From NCBI GenBank assembly GCA_913776795.1, contig CAJYRH010000314.1, positions 1-6,551 on the forward strand: 6,551 bases of DNA, read 5' to 3'. Each line of letters starts with the position of its first letter. Within the stretch, counting starts at the first letter, position 1. The position numbers were made by a program, and so were the translations under genes. Below the pieces are notes generated by a model. It worked only from the letters and a program-made list of their open reading frames with translations. It was not told where the DNA came from and did not search any database. This stretch comes from an uncultured Pseudorhodoferax sp. GTDB lineage: Bacteria; Pseudomonadota; Gammaproteobacteria; Burkholderiales; Burkholderiaceae. Positions 443 to 6,551 of this stretch are shown piece by piece.

Positions 443-3400
443 TCAGGTGGTCTCGAGAAGGCGGCGCACATAGCGTTCGCCGCCGCGAAAGTCGTAGCTG
501 TCCAGCAGGGCCTGCAGGGCCTGCACGTCGTGCGGCGGCAGATGCCGTCCCAGCGTGGCCAGCAGGGCTTCGGCCGGACCTGGGTCGTCGGCATCGAGCG
601 CGCGCAGCAGCGCCCGCAGCAGCGTCTGCGGTTGCTCGCCCGCAGGCGTTGGCGCGGGCGAGGCCAGGGGCGCCTGCGGCTCGGCCGCCGCCAGCTTGCG
701 CAGCGAGGCACTGGCCGTCTCCAGCGCCTGCTCGAGCCGCTGCAGTGCGGGCGCCGGGTCTTTTCCCTGCCGCAGTGCGTGCTCGATCTCGGCTGCTGCC
801 TCGGCTGTCTGCGGCAGCGCCAGGTGGGCGGCCCCCCCGCGCAGGCGATGGGCCGATGCGGCCGCATGCCCGGTTTGGCCAGCGGCGAGCAGTGCGCCGA
901 TCTCCTGCGCGCAGCCGCCATGCTCCTGCAGAAAGCGCGCCAGGAAGCGGCGGTACGCCGTGGCATCGGTCCAGATCTGCAAGCCCTGCGCCAGGTCGAT
1001 GCCTGGCAGCTCCTGCAATGCCGGGGCCGCACGTCGCGCACCCGGTGCGGCCAGGGCGGTGGTGCCGCCATCGCGGCCGGTCAGCCTGCGCACCAGGGCA
1101 ATGGTTTCGGCCACGTCGAACGGCTTGCCGATGAAACCGTTCATGCCCGCAGCCCAGGCCGCGTCCTGCTGGCTCTTGAAGGCGCCCGCCGTCAAGGCGA
1201 CAACGGGCAGCCGCGCCAGCTGCGGCCTGGCGCGGATGCGGCGCGTGGCCTCGATGCCGTCCATGACAGGCATCTGCACATCCATCAGCACGATGTCCAC
1301 GGGCGCTGCAGCGCTGTCCGCAAGCCGGTCCAGCGCCTGCTGGCCATCGCCTGCCAATGCCACGCGCGCGCCGGCACGCTGCAGGATGCGCTGGGCCACC
1401 TCGCGGTTGATCTCGCTGTCGTCCACGACCAGGATGGACAGGCCGGCCAGCGGCTGGGCCTGCGCCACCGGTGCGGCCGCAGCCGGCTGCTTCGTGGTGT
1501 TGCGGCGGCGTTGGGCCTGCACCACCGCGTCGTAGAGCTTGGAGCTGGTGAGCGGCTTGTCCAGCACCGCGTCGACAAGATCCGGACCGGCCTGCGCCAG
1601 CAGCGCCCCCCGCGCATGGGCCGTCACCATGATGACGATGGGGCACGCCTGTGCCGGCACCGCAGTGCGGATGGCGCGCGCGGCTGCGAGGCCGTCCATG
1701 CCCGGCATGCGCCAGTCGAGCAGGACCACGTCGGGCAGGGTCTGGGCCGCCACCCGGCGGTCGATGAAGTCCAGTGCATCGCGGCCGGAGGCCACGGCCT
1801 CCATCTGCCAGCCCAGCGCGCGTGCCGTCGCCACCGTGGCCTCGCGCACGAGCGGGTTGTCGTCCGCCACCAACCCCTGGACCTGCAGCATGGCAGGCGA
1901 GGAGAAGTGCGTGTCCGGCGCCGGTTCGAACGGCACGGAGAACCAGAAGGTGCTGCCCTGGCCGGGCGTGCTGCGCACGCCGATCTCGCCCCCCATGAGT
2001 TCGACCAGCTGGCGGCAGATCGCCAGACCCAGGCCGGTGCCGCCGAAGCGCCGCGTGGTCGAACTGTCGGCCTGCGCGAAGGGCGCAAAGATGTCCTGCA
2101 CCTTGTCGTCCGGGATGCCGATGCCCGAGTCCACCACAGAAAAGCGCAGCCGCACCTGGCGGCTGTCGCGCCACTCCAGTTCCGTCTGCAGCGCGACCTG
2201 GCCGCTGTCGGTGAACTTGATGGCGTTGGCCGTCAGGTTCACGAGCACCTGCTGCAGCCGCAGGGCATCGCCCACGAGCTGGCTGGCGCCGAGCGGAGGT
2301 GGCGAGACCACGAGTTCCAGCGGCTTGTCGCCGGCGTTCACGCCCATGATGGTGGCCACGTTGTCGATGACCTCGTCGAGCCGGAACGGCGCGCGCTCGA
2401 TCTCCAGCCGCCCTGCCTCGATCTTGGAGATGTCCAGCACATGGTTGATGGTGCCCAGCAGCGTGCGCCCGGCCGCGTGGATCTTGCGCACCAGGTCCAG
2501 CGGCTCGCCCTGCAGTGCACTGTGTTCGAGCAGGTAGGCCAGTCCCAGGATGGCGTTGAGCGGCGTGCGCACCTCGTGGCTCATGTTGGCGACAAACGCA
2601 GCCTTGGCGTGGCTGGCCTGCTCTGCGGCGTCGCGGGCCTGCACGAGCTCGGCCTCGGCACGCTCCAGGTCGGAGATGTCCTGCAGGAAGACCACGGTGG
2701 CCGGGCCGTCAGACAGGTGCACGGCGCTGCAGGCCACCAGCACCGGCAGCAGCGCGCCGCTCTTGCAGACGCTGTGCACCTTGCCCGCGCTGCTGGGTGC
2801 TGCCTGCGGAGCGGCCAGCGCAGCGTGCGCGTCGACGGCGAACGATGCCCGCCAGTCGCTCCCGGTCAGGGTGTCGGAGCCGCCGTAGCCATGCATGGCG
2901 AGGAAGCGCTGGTTGGTGTACTCGAACTGCGCGCCGCGCAGGATGGCGATGGCCGCCGGGGCGTCCTCGATGAGCATGCGAAAGCGCGCTTCCGACAACT
3001 TGAGCGCGGTCTCGGCCCGGCGACCCGAGATGTCACGCACGACCGCCAGGAAGCGTGGGCGGCGCTCGGCGGTGGCGGGCAGGTACTGCAGGAACACCTC
3101 CGCCGGGATCGGATGGCCGTCGCGGTGCCGGTGCACGACCTCGACCAGCTGGGCCGGTTCGCGCCCATCGACGAGAGGGCGCGTGCGCTCCAGATACTGG
3201 GCCGGCGTGGTGTCCCACAGCAGGTCGGTCGGCTTCATCGCGAGCAGGGCCTCCTCGCTGTAGCCGCTCATGCGGATGGCGCCTTCATTGACGTAGATGA
3301 ACTGCAGCGTCTGCGCGTCCAGGATGAAGACGCAGTCGAGCGTTTCGTCCAGCATGCTCTTGAAGTCGCGCAGTTCCGCTTCGCGCACCGCCAGGGACTG

Positions 3401-4768
3401 CGCCGCCAGCTGCCGCGCCGTCACATCCATGTGGGTGCCGGCCAGGCGCACGGGGGTGCCGTCGACGCGGTTGCCGCGCGACAGGATCCAGACCCAGTGG
3501 CCCTCGGCGTGCCGCACGCGGAACTCGGCTTCGAAGCGCGGGGCGCGGCCCTCCACGTGGTCTGCGGCGTGGGCCAGCACGCCGGCCACATCGTCTGGGT
3601 GCAGCCGTCGCGCCCAGGGCTGGCGCTCGAGCTGGAGTTGTGCGGGCGTCAGGCCCAGCATGCTGCTGCCCCGCGCGTCGAGCACGATGCGGCCGGTGTC
3701 CAGGTCCCACTCCCACAGGCCCAGGTCGGCGCCGCGCAAGGCCAGCGCCACGCGTGCCTCGCTCTCGTGGCGCGCCGCACGGCTGGCTTGCTGCAGGGCG
3801 GCCACCTGTGTGCGCCGGCGCTGCAGCAGCCCCAGGCCGAGGCCGCTCGCCAGCGTCGCCGCTGCGAACAACAGTCCGTAGGTGCGCGCCTGTTGCCAGA
3901 TCGGGGCGTACATCGCCGACTCGGATCGGCCCACTGCCACGACCAGCGGCTGGTCGACCTGCAGCCGGGGCGACAGCACGGTGCGTACGGCCACGCGCCG
4001 GTCCTGGACGGCCGACTGGTCGTGCACGAGGCTGTGCAGCACGCCTGCGGCCGCATGTTCGTGCCAGAAGGAACCCGGGCGTTGCAGATCGTCCAGCATG
4101 TCGCCGGCCGTCAGTGGCGCGACCTGGAACAGCCTTCCCTTGCCGTGCAGCACCGCGGCCCACATGTCTGGCGCGTACGTCACCGAGCCCAGCACGCCGC
4201 CGAAGTATTCGGGGTCCAGCGTGGCACTGGCCACCCGCAGCACGCTGGCGTCGTGCGCTCCGTTGGAACGCGCGGCATTCAAGGCCACGCTGCCGAGGTA
4301 CGAACGGAAGGGTTCCGACAAGGAAAGCATGCCCGCCCGCGGCGGATGCCGGGCGGCGCGGAAGAAGTCGCGCTCGCCGTAGTTGCGGCCCAGCAGCTCG
4401 GGGCGGTTGGCCGCCAGCACCGTGCCGTTGCCATCCATGACCGCCAGCGTGCGAACGCCCGGCATCACGTCCACCAGCGTCTGCAGCGCGGCCTCGCCCG
4501 CGCGGCCGGCCGGCACGGGCCAGTGCAGCGCGGCCTGGAGTACGGTGTGCAAGGCCTGGTCGACACTTTCCAGCTGCCGGCGCACGTGGTGGTCCACGAC
4601 CTGGGCCTGTGTCTGCAGACGCGCACTTTCCAAGCTGTCGATGCGCCTGTACTCCCGTACCAGGGCGTAGGCCATCAGTCCGGCAACCACGACAAGAACG
4701 CCGGCCAGCAGCAGCCATTCGCGCAGCAGTGCAGGCCAACGATGACCATGGGCGTTATTTGCAACCAT
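443..4768 (-). CDS. Membrane hybrid sensor histidine kinase: Cache-like sensor, 3 PAS, HisKA, HATPase, 2 receivers, HPt
   Basis: This is a 1441-residue multi-step phosphorelay kinase. A membrane segment (about 15-37) and a second (about 297-315) enclose a periplasmic sensor of about 255 residues that resembles a double Cache/PDC domain (VMDGNGTVLAANRPELLGRNY at 110-130). PAS domains lie at about 342-452, 467-585 and 590-705. HisKA carries the autophosphorylated H731 (NMSHEVRTPLN). The ATPase has N box N844/N848, G1 box DSGIGIP at 880-886 and G2 box GGTGLGLAI at 909-917. Receiver 1 (about 963-1085) has D969-D970, D1018, T1049 and K1071. Receiver 2 (about 1110-1230) has D1116-D1117, D1163, T1193 and K1215. 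HPt has H1307 (AHRLRG). Residues about 1380-1441 form an unassigned tail. No key residue is missing. I chose the ATG at 4768 because the first membrane helix follows at once. The frame stays open to 5044, but that extension does not look like protein. No good Shine-Dalgarno sequence is visible. The ligand is unknown, and the partner is probably the next gene. Confidence 0.95.
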   Translation of the reverse strand: MVANNAHGHRWPALLREWLLLAGVLVVVAGLMAYALVREYRRIDSLESARLQTQAQVVDHHVRRQLESVDQALHTVLQAALHWPVPAGRAGEAALQTLVDVMPGVRTLAVMDGNGTVLAANRPELLGRNYGERDFFRAARHPPRAGMLSLSEPFRSYLGSVALNAARSNGAHDASVLRVASATLDPEYFGGVLGSVTYAPDMWAAVLHGKGRLFQVAPLTAGDMLDDLQRPGSFWHEHAAAGVLHSLVHDQSAVQDRRVAVRTVLSPRLQVDQPLVVAVGRSESAMYAPIWQQARTYGLLFAAATLASGLGLGLLQRRRTQVAALQQASRAARHESEARVALALRGADLGLWEWDLDTGRIVLDARGSSMLGLTPAQLQLERQPWARRLHPDDVAGVLAHAADHVEGRAPRFEAEFRVRHAEGHWVWILSRGNRVDGTPVRLAGTHMDVTARQLAAQSLAVREAELRDFKSMLDETLDCVFILDAQTLQFIYVNEGAIRMSGYSEEALLAMKPTDLLWDTTPAQYLERTRPLVDGREPAQLVEVVHRHRDGHPIPAEVFLQYLPATAERRPRFLAVVRDISGRRAETALKLSEARFRMLIEDAPAAIAILRGAQFEYTNQRFLAMHGYGGSDTLTGSDWRASFAVDAHAALAAPQAAPSSAGKVHSVCKSGALLPVLVACSAVHLSDGPATVVFLQDISDLERAEAELVQARDAAEQASHAKAAFVANMSHEVRTPLNAILGLAYLLEHSALQGEPLDLVRKIHAAGRTLLGTINHVLDISKIEAGRLEIERAPFRLDEVIDNVATIMGVNAGDKPLELVVSPPPLGASQLVGDALRLQQVLVNLTANAIKFTDSGQVALQTELEWRDSRQVRLRFSVVDSGIGIPDDKVQDIFAPFAQADSSTTRRFGGTGLGLAICRQLVELMGGEIGVRSTPGQGSTFWFSVPFEPAPDTHFSSPAMLQVQGLVADDNPLVREATVATARALGWQMEAVASGRDALDFIDRRVAAQTLPDVVLLDWRMPGMDGLAAARAIRTAVPAQACPIVIMVTAHARGALLAQAGPDLVDAVLDKPLTSSKLYDAVVQAQRRRNTTKQPAAAAPVAQAQPLAGLSILVVDDSEINREVAQRILQRAGARVALAGDGQQALDRLADSAAAPVDIVLMDVQMPVMDGIEATRRIRARPQLARLPVVALTAGAFKSQQDAAWAAGMNGFIGKPFDVAETIALVRRLTGRDGGTTALAAPGARRAAPALQELPGIDLAQGLQIWTDATAYRRFLARFLQEHGGCAQEIGALLAAGQTGHAAASAHRLRGGAAHLALPQTAEAAAEIEHALRQGKDPAPALQRLEQALETASASLRKLAAAEPQAPLASPAPTPAGEQPQTLLRALLRALDADDPGPAEALLATLGRHLPPHDVQALQALLDSYDFRGGERYVRRLLETT

Positions 4769-4815
4769 TAACAGCCATGTTTTTCCGGTTAATCGCTCAA
4801 ATTTAGGCCATATTA
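4755..4815 (-). promoter_or_regulatory. AT-rich segment upstream of the kinase start, possible promoter/leader
   Basis: This is the most AT-rich stretch around the kinase gene, in otherwise strongly GC-rich sequence. The minus strand reads TAATAT at 4815-4810, a fair -10 hexamer, followed by TAAATT and GATTAA elements. I find no convincing -35 box at 16-18 bases from TAATAT, so the exact promoter is not fixed. The composition fits a promoter and leader for the kinase-regulator operon. The segment also covers the first few kinase codons. Confidence 0.35.
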
Positions 4816-5056
4816 CCGCGTGCAGGAGGTGAGGGCATCGCGCCTTGCTTCGAAGCTGGTCGTGGGAACAGTCGGTCGCGCGAAGGGAAGAACATGATCG
4901 CCCCGTGGCCATGCGGGTCGCGGGTAAGGCGAACGGCCACCGAGGCGAAACCGTCAGGCCGCAGGTAGCGAGATGTGGTGTGCCGACAGCCCACGTTGGG
5001 GGCAGGCCGCATGCATGGCGCGCCAAGCAGGCGGCGCGGAACACGAAGACAAGAAG
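4769..5056. other. Intergenic region between SRP RNA and hybrid kinase, no supported gene
   Basis: Open frames exist here on both strands (plus 4845-5072, minus 4803-5081 and the upstream extension of the kinase frame). They are rich in Arg, Pro, Cys and His, overlap one another, and resemble no family I know. One also runs through the SRP RNA. The region must separate ffs from the kinase, since both are transcribed leftwards. A GC hairpin with stem arms 5019-5024 and 5033-5038 and an 8-base loop lies downstream of ffs, but no T-run follows it. Just after the RNA's closing stem the minus strand is pyrimidine-rich (CCCCTTCTTGTCTT, 5059-5046). Either could help end ffs transcription. Neither is a textbook intrinsic terminator. 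Confidence 0.5.
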
Positions 5057-5154
5057 GGGTGACGAGCCTTGACCCCGGCACTGGCTACACAGTTAGGGCT
5101 GCTTGGTTCCCCACCTGACCCGGTTGGCCGCTTCACCATGCGGGAAGGCCCGTC
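5057..5154 (-). ncRNA. ffs: Small signal recognition particle RNA (4.5S RNA)
   Basis: The RNA binds Ffh and directs membrane and secreted proteins to the translocon. On the minus strand the domain IV core aligns without gaps to E. coli 4.5S RNA. It comprises GGTCAGG (5120-5114), a 3-bp stem TGG/CCA (5113-5111 with 5106-5104), the GGAA tetraloop (5110-5107) and AGCAGCC (5103-5097). E. coli has TCC/GGA in the short stem, so both sides have changed and pairing is kept. The ends close in a 10-bp helix: GACGGGCCTT (5154-5145) pairs with AAGGCTCGTC (5070-5061), with one G-T pair. The GTGCCGGGG stretch (5082-5074 region) matches the conserved 3' arm. The 5' end is set by the closing stem and the -10 box. 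The 3' end is uncertain by several bases. The gene is divergent from dnaX. Confidence 0.93.
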
Positions 5155-5211: not shown

Positions 5212-6551
5212 ATGTCCTATCTGGTTCTCGCGCGCAAATTCCGACCCAAGACGTTTGGAGAGATGGTGGGACAGGAGCATGTGGTCCGCGCACTGGAGAA
5301 CGCACTGACAAGCCAACGCCTGCACCATGCGTACCTGTTCACGGGTACGCGTGGGGTCGGCAAGACCACCGTGTCGCGCATCCTGGCCAAGTCGCTGAAC
5401 TGCCAGGGTACGGACGGGCAGGGCGGGGTGACCGCCCAGCCCTGCGGGGTTTGCCAGGCCTGCGCCGAGATCGATGCCGGCCGCTTCATCGACTACACGG
5501 AACTCGACGCTGCCTCCAATCGCGGCGTGGACGAGGTGCAGGGCCTGCTGGAGCAGGCCGTCTACAAGCCGGTGCAGGGCCGCTTCAAGGTCTTCATGAT
5601 CGACGAAGTGCACATGCTGACGAACACGGCGTTCAACGCCATGCTCAAGACGCTGGAGGAGCCGCCCGAGTACCTCAAGTTCGTGCTGGCCACCACCGAT
5701 CCGCAGAAGGTACCTGTGACGGTGCTGTCGCGTTGCCTGCAGTTCAACCTGCGACCGATGGCGCCCGAGACGGTGCGCGAGCACCTGGGCCGCGTGCTGC
5801 AAAGCGAGCATGTGCCGTCCGACGATGCATCGCTGCGCCTGCTGGCGCGCGCGGCCAGAGGCTCCATGCGCGATGCGCTGTCGCTGACCGACCAGGCGAT
5901 CGCTTTCGGCGCCGGCCAGTTGCAGGAAGCCAACGTGCGCCAGATGCTGGGCAGCGCCGACCGCAGCCATGTGCTGCGCCTGCTGCAGGCGCTGGCTGAA
6001 GGCGATGGACGCACCGTGGTCGACACCTGCGAGGAACTGCGCCTGCAGGGCCTGTCGGCCGCCGCCACGCTGGAGGACATGGCCGCCATGCTGCAACGCA
6101 TGGCCGTGCTGCAGGCCGTGCCCGACGGCATGCGCAGCGACGACGCCGAGCAGGCTGACGCAGCCCGCCTGGCCGCGGCGATGCCGGCCGACGAAACGCA
6201 GTTGCTCTACTCCATCTGCCTGCATGGCCGTGCCGAACTCGGTCTTGCGCCGGACGAGTACGCAGGCCTCACGATGGTGCTGTTGCGACTGCTGGCATTC
6301 AAACCGGCAAGCGCCGCAGCGGAAAAAAAAACTCTGCATGACGGCGACACCGGCCTGAACCGCGCTGCGCCAGCACCTGCGGCCGCGGCCGCGCGATCGC
6401 CAATGCCTGCGCCAGAGGCAGCGCCAGCGTCAGCGCCGAAGCCAGTGCGGGAGCCATCCCTGGCGTCGGCATCCACACCGGAAACAGCACCAGTTACAGC
6501 ACCGGCAACCGCAACCGCAACAGCGACAGCAACAGCAACAGCAACAGCGGC
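5212..6551 (+). CDS. dnaX: DNA polymerase III subunits tau/gamma, clamp-loader ATPase (3' end cut by window edge)
   Basis: DnaX is the motor subunit of the clamp loader that opens the beta ring at primed DNA. Its full-length tau form also holds the polymerase cores and the helicase. The first residues, MSYLVLARKFRP, match the family start, and an in-frame TAG at 5200 excludes an earlier one. Visible motifs are Walker A GTRGVGKTT (45-53, K51), zinc-binding C64, C78, C81 and C84, Walker B with DEVH (131-134), the SRC arginine finger (173-175) and the sensor 2 region GSMRDALSL (217-225). The collar domain ends near LLRLLAFKP (357-365). A run of nine A residues follows at codons 371-374, then an Ala/Pro/Thr-rich linker with an (Ala-Thr)7 run. 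Tau domains IV-V lie beyond the window. The zinc loop is 5 residues longer than in E. coli (C64 to C78 against C64 to C73). There is no Shine-Dalgarno sequence. Confidence 0.97.
   Translation, partial: MSYLVLARKFRPKTFGEMVGQEHVVRALENALTSQRLHHAYLFTGTRGVGKTTVSRILAKSLNCQGTDGQGGVTAQPCGVCQACAEIDAGRFIDYTELDAASNRGVDEVQGLLEQAVYKPVQGRFKVFMIDEVHMLTNTAFNAMLKTLEEPPEYLKFVLATTDPQKVPVTVLSRCLQFNLRPMAPETVREHLGRVLQSEHVPSDDASLRLLARAARGSMRDALSLTDQAIAFGAGQLQEANVRQMLGSADRSHVLRLLQALAEGDGRTVVDTCEELRLQGLSAAATLEDMAAMLQRMAVLQAVPDGMRSDDAEQADAARLAAAMPADETQLLYSICLHGRAELGLAPDEYAGLTMVLLRLLAFKPASAAAEKKTLHDGDTGLNRAAPAPAAAAARSPMPAPEAAPASAPKPVREPSLASASTPETAPVTAPATATATATATATATA
6323..6341 (+). promoter_or_regulatory. Predicted dnaX frameshift/slippage site (A9) with -1 frame stop
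   Basis: The run of nine A residues (6323-6331) is read GAA AAA AAA ACT in frame, giving E371-K372-K373-T374. It contains the tandem slip sequence A-AAA-AAA. A -1 shift after K373 reads AAC TCT GCA TGA and stops at 6339-6341, giving a product of about 376 residues with only domains I-III. That is the composition of a gamma subunit. The +1 frame stops at TGA 6356-6358. E. coli dnaX uses A-AAA-AAG by ribosomal frameshifting, and Thermus dnaX uses an A-run by transcriptional slippage. The sequence does not say which applies here. No strong Shine-Dalgarno-like enhancer is seen upstream. A small GCTG-CGC-CAGC hairpin (6364-6374) lies downstream, but its role is unproven. Confidence 0.65.
6505..6546 (+). 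repeat. Tandem 6-base repeat, 7 copies, in the dnaX linker
   Basis: Seven consecutive copies of GCAAC(C/A) occur, one of them varied to GCGACA. They are in frame and encode Ala-Thr seven times (residues 432-445). The unit is a multiple of three, so copy-number change would alter linker length without breaking the frame. The preceding linker is also low-complexity, rich in Ala, Pro and Ser. The window ends 5 bases after the array, so more copies may follow. Confidence 0.85.

Follow-up and report, generated by a model that had tools for sequence, protein, structure and literature searches.

The dnaX gene in the 6,551-nt stretch of Pseudorhodoferax DNA analysed here (the window) carries nine consecutive As directly behind the codons for collar domain III, and both unread frames end a few codons after this run. 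We regard the A9 run as probably a programmed recoding site, at which slippage of RNA polymerase would yield a gamma protein of about 376 residues beside tau. Judged from the relatives compared, the conservation of the run at this site is not due to chance. Coordinates are collected in Table 1.

Table 1. Features of dnaX and its surroundings in the window.
Feature	Position	Strand	Remarks
dnaX 5' part (DNA polymerase III tau/gamma)	5212..6551	+	TIGR02397, PF12169; window ends inside domain IV
LLAFKP, end of collar domain III	6289..6306	+	codons 360-365
A9 slippery run	6323..6331	+	phase GAA AAA AAA ACT; conserved in clade
-1 frame TGA	6339..6341	+	reached through an extra A or a ribosomal -1 shift
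+1 frame TGA	6356..6358	+	reached by one A lost or two gained
Frame-0 continuation	6332..6551	+	Pro/Ala/Thr-rich domain IV linker, tau-only if gamma is made
GCGCCA array	6367-6437		weaker array, before the AACAGC repeat in the dnaX linker
AACAGC hexanucleotide tandem repeat	6483-6548		11 copies, 78% matches; domain IV linker, codes Thr-Ala repeats
Small bacterial SRP RNA	5058-5154	-	RF00169, 62.6 bits; divergent from dnaX
Hybrid sensor histidine kinase ORF	443-5044	-	NCBIfam best BarA, TorS, below cut-offs (443-4774 scanned)

The window covers the first 446 codons of dnaX. TIGR02397 matched residues 3-360 with 404 bits, and the match to Pfam domain III (PF12169) extended to residue 363. Residues 1-368 aligned with residues 1-364 of the 373-residue gamma chain from E. 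coli (PDB 1jr3), and since this alignment ends at residue 368, the run is located just after domain III, where a preliminary description of this DNA had placed it. That description had also claimed nine As at codons 371-374 and near stops in both alternative frames, and both claims were borne out. The codons read GAA (371), AAA (372), AAA (373) and ACT (374). Behind the run, the -1 frame continues AAC TCT GCA TGA, with the stop as fourth codon and a predicted product of 376 residues, in agreement with the length expected earlier for a shift product. The +1 frame continues CTC TGC ATG ACG GCG ACA CCG GCC TGA, with the stop as ninth codon and a predicted product of 381 residues for a message with eight As. 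Frame 0 crosses the run and remains open up to the end of the window, and tau is thus encoded in a single ORF. In L001, the nearest of the relatives listed, the full gene encodes 617 residues, of which 493-611 match the polymerase-binding domain V (PF12170). Pseudorhodoferax species, with 97 and 96% identity over residues 1-370, were the nearest relatives among the best 80 listed. At the window's start, a response-regulator-like reading was seen on the minus strand, which also carries the histidine kinase ORF.

The dnaX run is the only A9 or T9 in the window, and none of 200 dinucleotide shuffles of the window contained an A9. In the L001 genome (6.7 Mb), GAAAAAAAAAC had a single occurrence, in dnaX, as against three for the reversed pattern. 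A9 on both strands of this genome gave nine overlapping matches, and A9/T9 is rare, ten genomes containing between 2 and 18 overlapping matches each. Some of the other runs in L001 also fall inside long open frames, with 331-333 codons open within 1 kb at four of seven places, an open frame not being a proven gene.

Conservation of the site was observed directly. The best 80 relatives (L001-L080) were selected by residues 1-370, a query that ends before the run; together with the window, 80 of 81 had the run in the same phase and 79 had exactly nine As. The linker flanking the run varies in length and sequence, and the run itself lies at codons 368-386 in these relatives. The TGGCNTTYAARCC...A9 pattern, limited to one spelling, was found in 146 of 399 family genomes and its reversed form in none. 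It misses genes that spell LAFKP otherwise: the 28 loci L151-L178, which are enriched for exceptions because they were picked as lacking this pattern, held 23 A9 or A10 runs, four A6G and one masked base. A search of 60 further genomes gave 30 loci, of which 29 were taken (G407 was left out, its match ending at residue 302). The two lists of relatives (300 and 399 genomes) contain best matches only, not one per genome, and removal of identical N-termini reduced 261 sequences to 254.

In a quick tree of 173 DnaX N-termini (at least 65% identity, plus L091 and L092), all loci that carry the run here fell into one clade of 131 rows (SH-aLRT 99). A9 was present in 116 of these, A10 in five, A8 in one and A_AAA_AAG (A6G) in five; three had no run (L073, L220, L228) and one had a masked base in it (L165). 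The preliminary description had proposed to look for run and nearby stops in relatives, and 116 A9, five A10 and one A8 among 131 answer this in its favor. Since a gene counts as A9 only if it has the run, the codons of this class are AAA there by definition; the figure unbiased by this definition is A8-A10 in 122 of the 131 rows. Outside the clade the run was absent from this site in all 42 rows, 40 of them relatives at 65-76% identity. With five states the tree requires no fewer than 10 changes, or 8 if A9 and A10 are merged. All named rows of the clade, wherever a family was given, belong to the Comamonadaceae, and we therefore place the origin of the run probably near the base of that family, with few losses afterwards.

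Two forms of A10 were seen in the clade. L111, L112, L171 and L192 form a subclade (SH-aLRT 99) reading GAA AAA AAA AAG CTG A, in which tau is still in frame 0 and both stops lie within 5 codons. In L021, from a metagenome bin, an A10 sits at codon 376; frame 0 ends at residue 385, so that the short form is the one in frame 0, and the +1 frame is open for 218 codons. This may be a dnaX resembling the two-ORF type, or an assembly error.

The stops in the two unread frames were the second line of evidence. Of 114 testable A9 genes (the 116 minus two with fewer than 45 codons behind the run), 112 have a stop within 15 codons in each of the alternative frames, whereas 500 codon shuffles gave 10.7 such genes on average and never more than 20; the species are related and these counts are not independent. 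Taken singly, the -1 stop and the +1 stop were each found within this distance in 113 of 114. After thinning to 13 A9 rows with less than 82% identity, both stops were still within 15 codons in 12. The exceptions are L064, with its -1 stop at codon 56, and L162, with its +1 stop at codon 55; in L199, the A8 row, the +1 stop is at codon 36. The first +1 stop in A9 genes is TGA in 108, TAA in 4 and TAG in 4. A CTG codon follows the run in 97 of the 116, and in 93 of these 97 the next base is A, although the residue it helps to encode varies (K 40, N 25, T 19, I 8, S 1). As the base is nearly constant and the residue is not, this position is, by the pattern of substitutions, under selection on the base, which makes TGA in the +1 frame (CTC TGA or similar). 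Such a selected +1 stop would be met only by messages that have lost one A or gained two.

These observations lead us to the following scheme. RNA polymerase slipping on the nine As would generate mRNAs that differ in the length of the run. Those with 9 (or 9+3n) As would be read through to tau, those with 10 As would enter the -1 frame and those with 8 or 11 the +1 frame, and in both cases translation would end a few codons on. The resulting gamma, of some 376-382 residues, would end just behind the collar domain and lack the C-terminal part of tau. The run, its conservation and the stops in both frames are what we observed; the slippage, the gamma protein and any gamma:tau ratio are what we infer from them. 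Nine As together with stops in both frames constitute the arrangement of Thermus. According to passages of PMC3711429, a shift in one direction among orthologues points as a rule of thumb to the ribosome and shifts in both directions to transcriptional realignment; stops kept in both frames would fit the latter. Genes for both lysine tRNAs, UUU and CUU, were detected with ARAGORN in L001 as well as in G094, G493, G687 and G566, and an anticodon-arm pattern was present in both forms in all 13 genomes searched. The available part of PMC5009743 suggests that the presence of two lysine tRNAs may be why slippage is used in Thermus.

The most serious alternative is a faithful transcript on which ribosomes shift to the -1 frame at A_AAA_AAA inside the run and so make gamma. 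The heptamer is there in the right phase, A7 is in itself a possible slip site, and the -1 stop, close by in nearly all A9 genes, would serve it as well. The first A, the ninth A and the +1 stop are however superfluous for a -1 shift, and yet they are kept. A Shine-Dalgarno-like box 2-24 nt upstream was found in 26 of 116 A9 genes, near the background of 244 in 1347, and inspection revealed none upstream of the window's run. RNA folding, which slippage does not need, gave slight encouragement to a ribosomal event. Downstream of the run in A9 genes (+7 to +47), folding energies averaged -14.6 kcal/mol as compared with -13.0 for codon shuffles and were lower in 84 of 116; for +4 to +64 the fold was below codon shuffles in 69 of 116, and in 111 genes the stretch behind the run reached -22.6 as compared with -20.0 kcal/mol for later stretches of the linker. 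Upstream, -60 to 0 was lower in 89 of 116, a stretch that covers conserved domain III codons, and -36 to 0 in 65. In the window itself, z values for 60 nt each were -1.65 upstream, -1.28 around the run and 0.89 downstream, so that its downstream region is no better folded than shuffles. These values make no case for a fixed hairpin at the A9 run, the downstream excess across the 116 genes being small.

We accord this alternative a minor chance and hold slippage to be the likelier process, since the +1 stop and the length of nine As are kept, since the upstream box is no commoner than background, and since relatives with A_AAA_AAG contrast with the A9 genes in their +1 stops. A ribosomal contribution beside slippage may exist. 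The preliminary description had rated the two processes as equally likely: its proposal of recoding was supported, and its equal weighting shifts towards slippage.

The relatives just mentioned carry a heptamer of the ribosomal type at the same place, within the same family, which speaks for the ribosomal alternative. A_AAA_AAG or A7G replaces A9 in 37 genomes, 31 of them from the Polaromonas genus group, a name that follows depositors' labels: G493 has the same DnaX sequence as an entry deposited as Polaromonas sp. A23, and Polaromonas is also the label of many among the 120 matches listed for it. L007, a metagenome bin with the same label, carries A9. Searches for the genera of G493 and G566 covered 42 distinct genomes, 37 of which had a match and 31 loci of which were read (the matched genomes outside these loci are G699, G721, G708, G727, G693 and G697). 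In the G493 genus all 31 examined loci were of this type (28 A6G, 3 A7G), as were five of five in the G328 genus. The -1 stop lies within 5 codons in all 37 genomes. A +1 stop within 5 codons was found in only 4 of the 37, as against 108 of 116 A9 genes, and its median distance was 33 codons compared with 1 (Fisher value 1e-21, ignoring kinship).

Upstream of the heptamer, the G493 genus has GGGAG or a G-rich variant at 15 nt, with GGGAG in 19 of 31. A loosely defined box 2-24 nt upstream was present in all 31, compared with the A9 and background frequencies given above. The 15-nt spacing falls just outside the 9-14 nt reported for Shine-Dalgarno elements (PMC5009743, in part). In the spacer of the A6G/A7G sites, numbered back from the G of AAG, the third codon positions at -18 and -12 do not vary among 35 sites, and the one at -15 is the same in 34. 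In L276-L310, from both A6G genera, GGGRGYGCCGYCGAGCC is nearly invariant 10 to 26 bases before this G, a stretch longer than a Shine-Dalgarno box by itself, with some third codon positions also fixed. Downstream, 18 of 31 loci of the Polaromonas group folded lower than codon shuffles, with no consistent hairpin, and a gap-free alignment of 35 A6G/A7G sites yielded no consensus structure. Five A6G loci averaged -24.4 kcal/mol downstream and -20.0 elsewhere in their linkers. The A6G genomes checked (G493, G687, G566) all also possess tRNA-Lys(CUU), which should weaken A_AAA_AAG and is an argument against a ribosomal reading in them.

In the first tree, L159, L169, L170 and L175 stood together (SH-aLRT 98) and L209, the fifth A6G row of the clade, sat on a long branch. 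A second tree of 109 rows, in which G493 stands twice and L169, L170 and L175 are missing, placed 36 of 37 A6G/A7G rows in a subclade of 47 nested in the A9 clade; the remaining row, L304, on a long branch, fell outside. The subclade has an SH-aLRT of 84, with several branches on the way below 80, and includes 11 A8-A10 rows. This nesting suggests that A9 is the ancestral state and that the ribosomal-type site arose from it on one or two occasions. We lean towards the view that one family makes the same short DnaX by two decoding errors: slippage on A9 would be the ancestral way, a ribosomal -1 cassette, with A_AAA_AAG behind a conserved GGGAG-like box, would have arisen in Polaromonas and one further genus, and the +1 stop would then have been lost. 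If genera indeed exchanged the mechanism and retained the short DnaX, gamma would be selected as a product, however made.

Codon choice bears on another explanation, namely that EKKT is a functional peptide or that the run was inherited by chance. EKKT or EKKS is indeed a common reading of the run, and behind it lysine is encoded by AAA in 321 of 550 cases (229 AAG). In the same genes, however, the lysine codons before the run are AAG in 943 of 1260 (317 AAA), and both unread frames are enriched in stops. AAA being commoner behind the run, the codon argument is drawn from domains I-III. In conserved columns of the clade there, the mean share of codons ending in A is 24% for lysine (8 columns, of which the highest has 56%) and 44% for glutamate (13 columns). 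In the visible part of the window's gene, a recount confirmed the 9 AAG and 4 AAA lysine codons noted earlier, two of the AAA falling in the run. Given the two-frame stops and the codon choice in domains I-III, conservation at the protein level, or neutral conservation, appears very improbable. A homopolymer error of sequencing or assembly, to which A runs are prone and of which L021 and L165 are perhaps cases, can practically be dismissed, because a run of nine As leaves frame 0 open for at least 183 codons, or to the end of the available sequence (5 cases), in 79 A9 genes.

Among 83 more distant loci (less than 65% identity), seven had an A9 near the end of domain III. In L117, L119, L128, L130 and L146 it reads CAA AAA AAA ACT AAT, with a -1 stop right after AAC and a +1 stop no more than four codons away; L147 has a close stop in the -1 frame only, and L260 has the run in another phase, in a gene region of 48% GC. 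L091 and L097 carry A9 at dnaX codons 491 and 519, followed directly by a -1 stop. These distant sites in the order are probably independent origins of a similar site.

The purpose of gamma has long been disputed (PMC5009743, in part). A 2012 review (PMC3290774) states, in the part available, that most bacteria beyond enterobacteria and Thermus have no kept dnaX frameshift signatures and perhaps no gamma. A family-wide site with doubly guarded stops would speak for selection on gamma in many species. That genera apparently exchanged one mechanism for the other may further offer a natural experiment on slippage as against ribosomal shifting and on the role of gamma. We found no paper on dnaX recoding in Acidovorax or Ottowia in the literature searched, which excludes most subscription journals. 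For dnaX slippage in Burkholderia the same search gave PMC3711429 alone, the main text of which names Burkholderia once, for another gene, and the available part of PMC5009743 names neither Polaromonas nor Burkholderia nor Comamonas.

Known dnaX systems resemble the present one to different degrees. Caulobacter likewise has a short DnaX beside tau, but it arises post-translationally, by proteolysis of tau (PMC5009743, in part), with no slippery run involved. Two-ORF dnaX was described, in passages of PMC3711429, for 17 genes from 12 genera, 12 of them with runs of 7-10 As that are thought to slip. There, tau needs recoding, whereas tau of the window is in frame 0; among the rows seen, L021 alone is clearly similar. 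E. coli dnaX shares with the window the gene, the kind of product and a -1 stop adjoining the site, but the window has no A_AAA_AAG, no Shine-Dalgarno-like box and no downstream hairpin above shuffles. E. coli gamma has 431 residues; a chain of this length, 8giy_B, carries the name tau in the structure listing. The gamma of 376 or 381 residues predicted here is close in length to the crystallised 373-residue gamma and, with the run directly after domain III, would be near-minimal. Recode-2 also lists Salmonella, Vibrio and Neisseria for A_AAA_AAG in dnaX (PMC3711429, in part). The closest likeness is to Thermus thermophilus, whose dnaX also has tau in a single ORF, nine sense-strand As, near stops in both frames and two lysine tRNAs. 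There, RNA polymerase inserts or drops As and the out-of-frame transcripts lead to short DnaX (PMC5009743 and PMC1088944, both in part). The window differs from it in a run that directly follows domain III, in conservation across a proteobacterial family, and in that slippage is here proposed from sequence.
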